Origin: Mangrovibacillus cuniculi
GTDB taxonomy: Bacteria; Bacillota; Bacilli; Bacillales; R1DC41
Reading direction: 5' to 3'
Assembly (NCBI RefSeq): GCF_015482585.1
Contig: NZ_CP049742.1
Span: forward strand, 2,201,001 to 2,265,000
Length of the DNA stretch: 64,000 bases
In this document: positions 16,573-20,577 of the stretch, piece after piece
Layout of the letters: each line of letters starts with the position of its first letter
Numbering within the stretch: position 1 is the first letter of the stretch
Notes under the pieces: generated by a model
Database searches by the model: none
Told to the model about the DNA's origin: nothing
Seen by the model: the letters and a program-made list of their open reading frames with translations, nothing else
Program-made: the position numbers and the translations under genes

Positions 16573-17772
16573 TTAACGAAGAAGTTGAAGAACTCCTTGA
16601 GGTTGTTGGTTAGCTTGAGCTAACATAGCTTGAGCTGCTTGAGAAAGAATAGAATTCTTTGTTTGAGTCATCATTTCTTTCGCCATGTCAACGTCACGGA
16701 TACGAGATTCCGCAGCAGTTAGGTTTTCAGAAGCTGTTCCTAAGTTATTAATTGTGTGCTCTAAGCGGTTTTGCATAGCACCTAAATTACTTCTTTGTGA
16801 AGATACTTTTTGAATAGCGTTATTCACTGTTTCAATAGCTGTTGCTGCTCCAAACTTACTAGAGATATCAATATCTTTTACGCCTAATGCATCCGCACGC
16901 ATATCACCAATTGAGATAAACGCAGTTTGCCCAGCGTTTGCACCAATTTGAGTCATAATTGAGCCATCAAGATCAGTACTTGCATCCTCATGCTTACCGA
17001 AAACAAGGGTAATACTTTCTCCTACTTTCATATTAGCTTCAAGATCACCAACAGCTAATGTAGTAAGACCACCAGTCAAAATACCTGCCCCAAAAGTTAG
17101 AGTATCTTTATCTGTTAGCGTAATATCAGTAGACGTTTGTCCATCTGGACCAACGATCTTGTAGTCACCCGCTGCAAATGTTCCTGGTGTAGTTTGATCA
17201 GTTCTAACAATCATATACGCTCCATTTACATTTGATTTTGTAGCATCAGTACCAGCAGCTGTGTTTAAACCATCAATAGCAGCTGAAGTGATTGTGACTC
17301 CTGAATTGTTATTTAATGAAACTGTACCTTTTACTGCTTCAGTTACTCCTTTAGCAGAACCATCTAATAATTTTTTTGTATTAAACTCTGTAGTGTTACC
17401 AATACGATCAAGTTCTGTTACTAATTGTTTAACTTCAGCCTGTAATTCTTTTCTGTCTGCATCAGTATTTGTATCATTTGCAGATTGAACTGCTAATTCC
17501 CTAGCGCGTTGAAGGATAGAATGTGTTTCATTTAAAGCTCCCTCAGCTGTTTGAATTAGAGAAATACTATCTTGTGCATTTTTTCCAGCCATCTCTAAAC
17601 CACGAATCTGTCCACGCATTTTTTCAGAGATCGCTAGACCAGCAGCATCATCACCTGCACGGTTGATACGAAGACCTGATGATAATTTCTCCATAGATTT
17701 AGACTGCATGTTAGAAGCAGCGCTCAATTGACGATGAGTGTTAAGAGCAGCAATATTGTGATTAATACGCAT
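16573..17772 (-). CDS. hag: Flagellin (copy 1)
   Basis: A 399-aa flagellin, the filament subunit. Conserved D0/D1 ends are complete: [45 protein letters not shown] at the start, and the C-terminal [18 protein letters not shown] to [16 protein letters not shown]. The central domain (about residues 145-290) is variable, Thr/Gly/Asp-rich, and different from that of copy 2. The start is the ATG at 17772 with GGGAGGAAA 6 nt upstream; a longer frame through the leader is spurious. It has its own perfect SigD promoter, a structured 190-nt leader with a GGA-loop hairpin, and a terminator. Confidence 0.96.
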
Positions 17773-17795: not shown

Positions 17796-17815
17796 AGTGG
17801 ACTTCCGTTTCCACT
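17796..17815 (-). promoter_or_regulatory. Candidate CsrA-binding hairpin, flagellin 1 leader
   Basis: On the minus strand AGTGGA, loop AACGGAAG, TCCACT forms a 6-bp stem with GGA in the loop, the pattern bound by CsrA. It sits about 8 nt upstream of the ribosome-binding site CCAGGGAGGAAA, which itself could be the second CsrA site. Confidence 0.65.
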
Positions 17816-17832: not shown

Positions 17833-17925
17833 TTACGACTACCCGTCCTGCCTAGGATGGACGACGTCGTGAATCTCGAGTGTATGTAGTAAAGAGAAAC
17901 TTCTTGTTTCTCTTTACTAGCGCCC
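17833..17925 (-). promoter_or_regulatory. Two further hairpins in the flagellin 1 leader
   Basis: A 13-bp perfect stem (AGTAAAGAGAAAC pairing with GTTTCTCTTTACT, 5-nt loop) occupies about 17888-17918. Downstream, nested arms ACGAC/GTCGT and CGTCC/GGACG enclose a CCTAGG loop at about 17835-17868. Long stable leader hairpins may stabilise the abundant flagellin mRNA. Confidence 0.6.
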
Positions 17926-17964: not shown

Positions 17965-17991
17965 ATATCGGCCTATGGTAAGAAGTGTTTA
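17965..17991 (-). promoter_or_regulatory. SigD promoter of flagellin 1
   Basis: TAAA, 15 nt, GCCGATAT on the minus strand: a perfect match to the SigD (flagellar sigma factor) consensus. Confidence 0.93.
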
Positions 17992-18072: not shown

Positions 18073-18101
18073 TTTACAAAGGAAAATTATCCTATTATAC
18101 T
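18073..18101 (+). promoter_or_regulatory. SigA promoter of the csrA-like gene
   Basis: TTTACA (18073-18078) and TATACT (18096-18101) are 17 nt apart, near-consensus for SigA, 37 nt upstream of the csrA-like start and divergent from the flagellin 1 promoter. Confidence 0.75.
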
Positions 18102-18137
18102 ATTATTCAACAAGACTTCAAGGAGGATATTCCAAAA

Positions 18138-18314
18138 ATGCTTGTAATTGGTCGAAAAGTAAATGAATATGTCGTAATTGATGATAATATTAAAGTTCGT
18201 GTTGTAAGGTCGAAAGAAGGTCATTTACGTTTAGCTATTGATGCACCACGCGAGATACCTATTGTTCGTGGAGAACTTTGGGAAAGAGCACAATTAGAAG
18301 AACAAGAAGAATAA
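18138..18314 (+). CDS. Second, divergent CsrA-family RNA-binding protein
   Basis: A 58-aa CsrA-family protein. It aligns end to end with the CsrA core (MLVIGRKVNEYVVIDDNIKV, then LRLAIDAPREIPIVRGELW) and keeps the RNA-contact residues R6 and R44 together with I4, K7 and I42. It lacks the long C-terminal tail of the main CsrA at 19882. The start is the ATG at 18138 because AAGGAGG lies 10 nt upstream; a longer frame starting at 17985 is unlikely. It is on the + strand between two minus-strand flagellin genes, under its own SigA-type promoter, and converges on flagellin 2. It probably binds GGA hairpins, perhaps those in the flagellin leaders. Family call is strong; targets are inference. Confidence 0.85.
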   Translation: MLVIGRKVNEYVVIDDNIKVRVVRSKEGHLRLAIDAPREIPIVRGELWERAQLEEQEE

Positions 18315-18358
18315 ACAAAAAAACGCCACCAATATAACTCTGGTAGCGTTTTTTTTTG
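18315..18358. terminator. Bidirectional terminator between csrA-like gene and flagellin 2
   Basis: AACGCCACC and GGTAGCGTT pair around an 11-nt loop with A and T runs on both sides, serving the + strand csrA-like gene and the minus-strand flagellin 2. Confidence 0.85.
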
Positions 18359-18367
18359 TTTATTTTA

Positions 18368-19612
18368 TTATCGAAGTAATTGTAGAACTCCTTGCGGCTG
18401 TTGGTTTGCTTGCGCTAACATTGCTTGAGATGCTTGCGCTAAGATAGAGTTACGAGTTTGCTCCATCATTTCTTTTGCCATGTCTACGTCACGAACACGA
18501 GATTCTGCAGCTGTTAAGTTTTCAGAAGAAGTTCCCAAGTTGTTGATTGTGTGCTCTAAACGATTCTGAACAGATCCTAATTTAGAACGTTCTGCGGATA
18601 CTTTTTGAATAGCTTCATCAATAACTTTAACTGCAGTAGAAGCTTGGCTTTGTGTGCCAACTTGAAGGTTGTTTACTCCTAACGTTGCAGCTCTCATATC
18701 TTCAATACCTAGATTCATAGATTGACCAGTGTTTGCACCAATCTGGAATGTAGCAGAACCATTACTACGAGCGTCTTGTGCTTTTGTACCAACTTGGAAG
18801 TTTGATAGAACATTAGATGCAGCTTCTTTTCGTGTCCCATCTGCTGCTTTTACTTCAATCGATAAACCATTGATTTGTGCCGCTGTTCCGCCTGCTGCTG
18901 CAGTAATGGTTGTTACACCTGCTGCCGTTGCAGCGGAAGCTACGGAAGCATCAGCTGCAATCGCTGCGTTGATATCCGATAAGTCATCAGTTGTAATGTC
19001 CGTTACAGAGAAAGTTGCTGTTCGCTGAGTACCGTTTACAGACCAGGTAGCTGTAACCGTGTCTCCGTTCGCAATACCTAAGTTGTTACCGTTAACGTCT
19101 ACTAGAGCATTTAACGTTGTAGCGTCTGCCATTGCAGCACCTAATGTACCAGAGTTTGTTACGGTACCTGTAGCAACTGCTTGAGCGCTACCAAGGCTAC
19201 CATTTAATAATTTCTTTGTATTGAATTCTGTTGTATTGGCAATTCTCTCGATTTCTGTACCCAATTGGTTCATTTCATCTTGGATATTCGAACGATCTTG
19301 AGAAGTATTTGTGTCGTTTGCAGATTGTACTGCTAGTTCACGCATACGTTGTAGGATTGCGTGAGTTTCGTTTAACGCACCCTCAGCTGTTTGGATAAGG
19401 GAAATGCCATCTTGAGAGTTACGTTGCGCTTGATCTAATCCACGAATCTGACCACGCATTTTTTCAGAGATTGCTAGACCTGCAGCATCATCTCCTGCAC
19501 GGTTAATACGAAGACCAGAAGATAGTTTTTCCATTGATTTACCTTGAGCGTTTGAAGCATAGCTTAATTGACGGTGAGTGTTTAAAGCAGCGATGTTGTG
19601 ATTGATACGCAT
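18368..19612 (-). CDS. hag: Flagellin (copy 2)
   Basis: A 414-aa flagellin with intact conserved ends ([20 protein letters not shown] and [19 protein letters not shown] to [13 protein letters not shown]). The central domain (about residues 150-310) is Ala/Thr-rich and unrelated at sight to that of copy 1. The ATG at 19612 has AAGGAGGAA 8 nt upstream. It lies directly downstream of csrA, the position of hag in B. subtilis, so it is the better positional orthologue. Its leader has two GGA-loop hairpins. Two intact flagellins suggest mixed or alternative filaments. Confidence 0.96.
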   Translation of the reverse strand: MRINHNIAALNTHRQLSYASNAQGKSMEKLSSGLRINRAGDDAAGLAISEKMRGQIRGLDQAQRNSQDGISLIQTAEGALNETHAILQRMRELAVQSANDTNTSQDRSNIQDEMNQLGTEIERIANTTEFNTKKLLNGSLGSAQAVATGTVTNSGTLGAAMADATTLNALVDVNGNNLGIANGDTVTATWSVNGTQRTATFSVTDITTDDLSDINAAIAADASVASAATAAGVTTITAAAGGTAAQINGLSIEVKAADGTRKEAASNVLSNFQVGTKAQDARSNGSATFQIGANTGQSMNLGIEDMRAATLGVNNLQVGTQSQASTAVKVIDEAIQKVSAERSKLGSVQNRLEHTINNLGTSSENLTAAESRVRDVDMAKEMMEQTRNSILAQASQAMLAQANQQPQGVLQLLR

Positions 19613-19639
19613 GATAGTTTTTCCTCCTTGGAATGTGGT

Positions 19640-19657
19640 ACTTACGTCCTTGTAAGT
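19640..19657 (-). promoter_or_regulatory. Strong candidate CsrA site, flagellin 2 leader
   Basis: ACTTAC, loop AAGGAC, GTAAGT: a perfect 6-bp stem with GGA in the loop. The sequence TTACAAGGACGT agrees at 10 of 12 positions with the CsrA consensus RUACARGGAUGU, just upstream of the ribosome-binding site. Confidence 0.75.
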
Positions 19658-19680
19658 AATGTTGTTAGCCAAGTAAAGCG

Positions 19681-19849: not shown

Positions 19850-19883
19850 CCAAACAAAAAACACTCACCCCACGGCAAGTGTT
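19850..19883 (-). terminator. Terminator of the fliW-csrA operon
   Basis: AACACTTGCC pairs with GGTGAGTGTT (two wobbles) around a 4-nt loop, followed by TTTTTTG, at the csrA stop codon. It insulates csrA from flagellin 2. Confidence 0.88.
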
Positions 19884-20112
19884 ACTCTTTCTTCTCGTCT
19901 TTCGGCAAAACGCTCAGTAAGTCTGCTACTGATAAAGAAGCCTGCGCGTTTTCCTCTTGAATCTGCATATAGATTTCTTTTCGGAATACATCGATACCGC
20001 GCGGCGCTTGAATACCGATTTTCACTTGATCGTTCTTCACGTTCATCACCGTGATTTCGATATCATCACCAATTTTAATAGACTCTCCACTTTTTCTCGT
20101 TAGAATTAACAT
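19882..20112 (-). CDS. csrA: Carbon storage regulator CsrA
   Basis: A 76-aa CsrA, the dimeric RNA-binding protein that represses flagellin translation by covering its ribosome-binding site. The core [22 protein letters not shown] and [16 protein letters not shown] keeps R6 and R44. The tail ([24 protein letters not shown]) is longer than usual; in Bacillus CsrA the C-terminal region is where FliW binds. It directly follows fliW (6 nt gap) and precedes flagellin 2, the conserved fliW-csrA-hag arrangement. Confidence 0.97.
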
Positions 20113-20118
20113 CGCACG

Positions 20119-20577
20119 TTACCCCCTGTTCTCGACTGTCATCGACGTAGGAGCAAGAGGTTGTTTCGTTAAATATGGCGTATCAATCAACACTACTTGT
20201 TTTCCAACTTGTTTACGACGGTTGATAATCACTGGCGCCTGCAAGTTCGCAGTCGAAGTCGGGAACGGATTTTTGACTGTTAAGATCGTCCAGATATCAG
20301 CGTCTTCCACATTCTCCAACTCTAGTTCTTCTACCACTGTTTTCGGTAAAGTAATATCGTAATCTTGGAAAAATGTAAACGGACTAGATACGATAAAACC
20401 AAGTTCTGCTGTTTTCGTAGATTGGAGAATGAAAAATGCCGGGTTGTCCACAACTGGTAAAACGACAAACGATTTTTCTTCTTCAAAGCCCGGAAGACCT
20501 TTCGTAAAGGTAACAGTTTGTTCAGGTAGTAACTCTATCTCTCCGTGGTACTTTGTTTCCACTTTCATCCTACTCAC
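20119..20577 (-). CDS. fliW: Flagellar assembly factor FliW
   Basis: A 152-aa FliW, which binds either flagellin or CsrA. When flagellin is exported FliW is freed, sequesters CsrA and lets flagellin translation resume. Conserved features are KGLPGFEEEKSFVVLP, FFILQSTKTAELGFIVSSPF and the C-terminal NLQAPVIIN. The start may be MSRMK or the methionine three residues later. It is followed by csrA and lies 7 nt after yviE. No second FliW was found to match the second CsrA. Confidence 0.96.
   Translation of the reverse strand: MSRMKVETKYHGEIELLPEQTVTFTKGLPGFEEEKSFVVLPVVDNPAFFILQSTKTAELGFIVSSPFTFFQDYDITLPKTVVEELELENVEDADIWTILTVKNPFPTSTANLQAPVIINRRKQVGKQVVLIDTPYLTKQPLAPTSMTVENRG

Follow-up and report, generated by a model that had tools for sequence, protein, structure and literature searches.

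A short, flagellin-linked CsrA lineage in Bacillota and its candidate role in FliW-independent control of one of the two flagellins of Mangrovibacillus cuniculi

Between the two flagellin genes of Mangrovibacillus cuniculi lies, on the strand opposite to both, a short gene whose product resembles CsrA. FliW-CsrA flagellin homeostasis is a textbook post-transcriptional switch. Work on it in Bacillota has dealt with species that have one CsrA; here a second one lies in the vicinity of a canonical csrA and fliW. We analysed the locus within a stretch of 64,000 nucleotides of contig NZ_CP049742.1 (hereafter the window) and compared it with related genomes. The flagellin-linked short CsrA is here designated CsrA2 and the FliW-linked canonical one CsrA1. 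The genes and signals of the locus are:

16573..17772, minus strand: hag1, flagellin (Flagellin_N/C), the likely target of CsrA2
17965..17991, minus strand: SigmaD promoter of hag1, TAAA-N15-GCCGATAT, matching at 12 of 12 positions
18073..18101, plus strand: SigmaA-type promoter of csrA2, TTTACA-N17-TATACT, 10 of 12 consensus positions, assigned by pattern only
18120..18127, plus strand: Shine-Dalgarno sequence of csrA2, AAGGAGGA, read from the sequence; the antisense csrA2 of the related locus L060 has a ribosome-binding segment that can be aligned with this one
18138..18314, plus strand: csrA2, complete open reading frame for a 58-residue protein of CsrA fold, MLVIGRKVNEYVVIDDNIKVRVVRSKEGHLRLAIDAPREIPIVRGELWERAQLEEQEE
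18317..18355, both strands: bidirectional terminator common to csrA2 and hag2, 16-pair stem with T tail
18368..19612, minus strand: hag2, flagellin (Flagellin_N/C), linked to csrA1 and fliW
19882..20112, minus strand: csrA1, canonical FliW-linked CsrA of 76 residues (Pfam E=2.2e-25, above the NCBIfam cutoff)
20119..20568, minus strand: fliW (Pfam FliW E=1.5e-35)

The product of csrA2 matches the Pfam family CsrA (PF02599) with E=1.5e-19 and 70 bits (cutoff 27) and reaches 60.8 bits with the NCBIfam csrA equivalog TIGR00202, which is below the cutoff of 70.1 and marks it as a CsrA-family protein, albeit an atypical one. Comparison with eight relatives yields pS values of 0.62-0.91 and pN values of 0.18-0.28. 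Together with the Pfam match this large excess of pS over pN rules out a chance open reading frame, and csrA2 is, by its substitution pattern, a coding gene under purifying selection. Both R6 and R44 are kept, as the sequence-only reading, which first pointed to a second CsrA-like gene between the flagellins, had stated, and so is every invariant residue of the subfamily described below, in which R6, R44, A36 and P37 are conserved and R44 is invariant in 28 proteins. Arg44 is essential for RNA binding by CsrA (PMC7366521). The AF2 model of the monomer has a pLDDT of 86.7, and the 15 best PDB matches found with it by Foldseek are all CsrA/Rsm chains, the best of them modest (E=1.2e-3, TM about 0.65). 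CsrA2 thus appears to be a genuine RNA-binding regulator of the CsrA family. In the whole genome two CsrA genes score above the cutoff, both at this locus, and the flagellin complement consists of the two flagellins and FlgL.

Clearly, csrA2 is not a recent duplicate of csrA1. The two window proteins align gapless over 54 residues with an identity of 35% and are separated in the tree by the CsrA2/CsrA1 split, whose support amounts to 100/98; together these rule out recent duplication. The closest sequences to CsrA2 are found elsewhere, in Bacillaceae, Paenibacillus, Clostridium and Sporomusa (54-78% identity), and define a subfamily of 50-60 residues with the signature MLVxGRKPGEY...GHLRLAIDAP...RGE. 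The window protein scores 105 bits with the CsrA2 profile (designated A1), which includes its own row, versus 35 bits with the CsrA1 profile. Of 397 genomes searched in the order, 23, from 13 families, reach about 90 bits or more with the A1 profile and one divergent case 67 bits, while canonical CsrA proteins among the matches listed do not exceed 62 bits, so the profile separates CsrA2 cleanly from FliW-linked CsrA in the order. Beyond the order, Paenibacillus and some clostridia also have CsrA2. An evenly drawn sample of the class yields it in only 5 of 399 genomes (E<=1e-17; two of the five are weak), which indicates a patchy distribution. A tree of 58 residues cannot fix the position of the window copy inside CsrA2. 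The open-access papers searched do not describe this lineage of Bacillota, although subscription journals may do so; it is apparently an undescribed, flagellin-linked branch of CsrA.

A striking feature of CsrA2 concerns the contacts to FliW. In C. jejuni CsrA, V/I51 and N55 are needed for FliW binding (PMC7829508), and I51 and N55 are invariant in our set of FliW-linked CsrA1 proteins. In their place CsrA2 of the window has A51 and E55. Moreover, its chain stops at residue 58, compared to 76 residues in the neighbouring CsrA1, and the C-terminal extension is absent; the long FliW-binding tail was already reported missing by the sequence-only reading, to which the two exchanged residues can now be added. 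Also, fliW adjoins csrA1, not csrA2. Since the contacts which define FliW-regulated CsrA are not found in it, CsrA2 is a CsrA-family member that would work like CsrA, not of the FliW-regulated kind, and is probably insensitive to FliW.

The leaders of the flagellin genes fall into two types. Those linked to csrA1 carry a CAC-A[AU]GGA[CU]-GUG hairpin upstream of the Shine-Dalgarno sequence, whereas most leaders linked to csrA2 show, likewise upstream of it, a covarying stem capped by an A(ANGGAN)G loop. Both types are present in the window, with the loops AACGGAAG (hag1) and CAAGGACG (hag2), and were assigned by held-out score and fold:

17796..17815, minus strand: operator hairpin of hag1, AGUGGA-AACGGAAG-UCCACU, csrA2-linked type
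19639..19658, minus strand: operator hairpin of hag2, UACUUAC-AAGGAC-GUAAGUA, csrA1-linked type

A simple position matrix assigns 36 of 37 leaders to the right type under leave-one-out, a count which omits leaders in which the script found no hairpin anchor. When held out, the hag1 leader scores 18.2 as CsrA2 type versus -3.7 as CsrA1 type, and the hag2 leader 13.4 as CsrA1 type versus -2.8 as CsrA2 type; within the window the csrA2-linked type is confined to hag1. The minimum-energy folds contain both hairpins, and the stability of either leader as a whole is unexceptional compared to shuffles. As four csrA2-linked leaders (L017, L054, L070 and L071) have CsrA1-like hexaloops, the operator split is strong, not absolute, and CsrA1 could bind the hag1 leader as well. 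A search of the window leaders against Rfam gave no known riboswitch or leader, only sub-threshold chance matches, and the leaders of the relatives yielded none either. The hag1 leader further contains, at 17838-17862 (minus strand), a CAUCCUAGG-type middle element which also occurs in the csrA2-linked leaders of L064, L065 and L067.

The reading we favour, with somewhat more confidence than doubt, is that a CsrA2 homodimer represses the translation of hag1 independently of FliW, that CsrA1-FliW mainly governs hag2, and that the antisense csrA2 is a retained copy. CsrA2 would be produced constitutively from the SigmaA-type promoter, and its homodimer would bind two sites of the hag1 leader, namely the -36 GGA hairpin and the GGA-containing Shine-Dalgarno sequence, thereby blocking ribosome entry and hence translation in trans; in B. 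subtilis, CsrA represses hag at the ribosome-binding site (PMC6529632). Because the FliW-binding residues and the tail are absent, CsrA2 would not be released by FliW, and hag2, with its other operator type, would be mainly under CsrA1-FliW. Ancestrally, hag1 would have shared its SigmaD promoter and transcript with a second, sense csrA2, the antisense copy being the one retained. The proposal of the sequence-only reading that the gene adds a second layer to the FliW-CsrA-flagellin switch thus holds insofar as a second CsrA is present, but not as a generic layer on both leaders, since CsrA2 of the relatives is tied to one flagellin and one hairpin type and in the window hag1 alone has this type.

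It could be argued that CsrA2 acts through CsrA1, as mixed dimers which bind both leaders or are half-sensitive to FliW would shift the FliW-CsrA switch. CsrA is an intertwined dimer, csrA1 and csrA2 reside in one cluster, and the gapless alignment of their products is in line with such pairing. Considering, however, that the two share merely 35% identity, that their clades are separated by a long and well-supported distance and that the separate operator types suggest separate proteins, we regard mixed dimers as unlikely.

That CsrA2 is tied to flagellin genes emerges from 34 loci of relatives in which csrA2 is followed, 161-436 nt downstream, by a flagellin gene on the same strand (161-226 nt in 31 of the 34, typically about 190 nt). 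A SigmaD-type promoter is located 5' of most sense csrA2 copies and almost never in the spacer between csrA2 and flagellin, so that both genes look like one operon. Second copies of csrA2 occur in tandem (L007, L008, L014, L015, L022, L023, L053, L054 and L068) or antisense (L025, L028 and L060). At three loci of relatives further RNAs were noted: a group I intron (RF00028) within the flagellin gene following csrA2 in L009 (7413-7754, Pallidibacillus) and in L013 (7957-8270, Pontibacillus marinus), and a pair of Bacillaceae-1 RNAs (RF01690) close to flgL and fliW in L008 (1491-1557 and 2343-2409). Among the genomes of the order the window stands apart, its sole CsrA2 being encoded antisense. 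The promoter there is of the SigmaA type rather than SigmaD, in agreement with the SigA-type promoter claimed by the sequence-only reading, and CsrA proteins are frequently global regulators, both of which would fit a CsrA2 that is made constitutively and chiefly regulates mRNAs other than those of flagellins, a possibility which the sequence-only reading had left room for. Yet the close linkage to flagellin genes is typical across many families and the matching operator has been retained on hag1, which makes this alternative rather improbable in our view.

Most relatives harbour, directly 3' and/or 5' of csrA2, an RNA element of about 80 nt. It consists of a GGA hairpin (e.g. AAACUC-AUGGAC-GAGUUU) whose 3' arm doubles as the 5' side of an intrinsic terminator stem (GACGAGUUUGG...CCAAACUCGUC-UUUUUU), the two structures being mutually exclusive; usually a second, apical GGA hairpin is added (34 of 54 elements, compared to an average of 6.7 in shuffles). 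Covariation amounts to 0.534 versus 0.239 (shuffled) for the terminator stem and is weak for the competing GGA stem (0.246 versus 0.183), with pair counts inflated since the elements were first chosen by pairing. A covariance model, trained partly on the same genomes as were searched (299 in total), finds the element in 20 of 21 CsrA2 genomes, at the csrA2 locus, and weakly in 3 of 278 others; that the element is missing from the other genomes and from other loci is the part less affected by circularity. Rfam holds no match for it in the relatives' leaders. The one CsrA2 genome of the 21 without the element is that of the window, in which the best match (E=1.3) was taken as absence; the terminator at 18317-18355 lacks a GGA, unlike the element of the relatives.

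From this layout one would suppose that CsrA2 of the relatives brings about antitermination in its own operon and, in addition, repression at the Shine-Dalgarno sequence, a notion that does not extend to the window. A wider scheme, which we put forward tentatively and with doubt outweighing confidence, would comprise two insulated channels, CsrA1-FliW reading the hag2 operator and CsrA2 reading the hag1 operator with no protein off-switch, and in the relatives additional control by CsrA2 of its own operon through a new intrinsic attenuator, on which a CsrA2 dimer bound to the GGA hairpin would lead to read-through. One may further ask whether CsrA2 activates its flagellin, by antitermination or mRNA protection, instead of repressing it. 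In the relatives, the GGA hairpin and an intrinsic terminator ahead of csrA2 and hag are in competition, so binding of CsrA2 would favour read-through there. This element is, however, absent from the window genome, and the sites remaining at hag1 are situated at the ribosome-binding site as in the repression of B. subtilis hag (PMC6529632); activation therefore appears quite improbable.

How the window came by its arrangement is indicated by L060 (genome G104), which has csrA2 copies in both orientations, antisense and sense. From the typical CsrA2 locus, with sense orientation, a SigmaD promoter, a flagellin gene about 190 nt downstream and the GGA/terminator element, csrA2 of the window departs in being antisense, in its SigmaA-type promoter and in the lack of the element. 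The interval between csrA2 and hag1 is collinear with L060: the two agree in the ribosome-binding site of the antisense csrA2, in the SigmaD promoter, whose offset is nearly identical, and in the end of the hag leader, the SigmaD promoter of hag1 corresponding in the alignment to the one of the sense csrA2-hag operon in L060. The alignment score of promoter and leader is 49 (shuffle maximum 31), compared to a promoter match of 31 for L025, which is no better than shuffles (best 34), so that the argument from collinearity rests on L060. The window interval lacks about 300 nt of L060 which contain the sense csrA2 together with the RNA element. The simplest reading would be a loss of sense csrA2 and element, with the antisense copy retained, and with this loss the circuit may be decaying in the window genome. 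That csrA2 is by now a relic without important role, as the lone absence of the element among the 21 CsrA2 genomes searched and the long, i.e. fast-evolving, branches of the antisense copies of L025 and L060 could imply, is hardly probable given its intact frame, its promoter and strong Shine-Dalgarno sequence, the excess of pS over pN and the presence of all invariant residues of the subfamily.

The gene is divergent from the SigmaD promoter of hag1 and, as the sequence-only reading remarked, convergent with hag2. While this convergence is confirmed, with a common terminator, it looks incidental, a consequence of that terminator and a leftover of the inherited antisense copy. Antisense control of hag2 through overlap was dismissed, as the transcripts end at the common terminator and no overlap is seen.

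In comparison with the CsrA-FliW-Hag switch of B. subtilis and Geobacillus, CsrA2 shares the CsrA fold, the GGA hairpin and Shine-Dalgarno sequence in the flagellin leader and the gene cluster fliW-csrA-hag, but is short, lacks I51/N55 and the FliW tail, belongs to a separate clade and is linked to leaders mostly with another hairpin loop. The Pseudomonas proteins RsmA, RsmE, RsmI and RsmN are likewise CsrA paralogues without FliW tail; in contrast, they are under Gac-driven sRNAs and not tied to a single flagellin gene. At E. coli pgaA, CsrA binding also affects a termination decision, yet there termination is Rho-dependent, whereas in the relatives' element, absent from the window, a GGA hairpin overlaps an intrinsic terminator. 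If the favoured reading is right, a second CsrA lineage with a second flagellin would explain the separate dosing of several flagellins, and CsrA1/CsrA2 would be a natural pair for studying CsrA specificity; the relatives' element would, if it acts as supposed, be a protein-controlled intrinsic attenuator of flagellin operons.

Several CsrA-like genes outside the typical arrangement were observed. In Salibacterium aidingense, csrA2 (L017, 6001-6219) has an in-frame stop near codon 26, as does L066, apparently the same locus from another collection. With regard to a possible phage origin, the sole match on a viral contig (L141, 3001-3147) codes for a CsrA2-like protein of 45% identity. In L072, L077 and L078 a flagellin gene is preceded, at 63-90 nt, by a short CsrA-like gene that scores between the CsrA1 and CsrA2 profiles. 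Finally, CsrA-like proteins of 73-142 residues are encoded directly 5' of flagellins in loci of the Oscillospiraceae type (L031, L035, L037, L040, L043 and L045); with their long C-terminal tails and altered N-terminus (e.g. MLSLQMKSGEY) they possibly form a third, divergent group of flagellin-linked CsrA.
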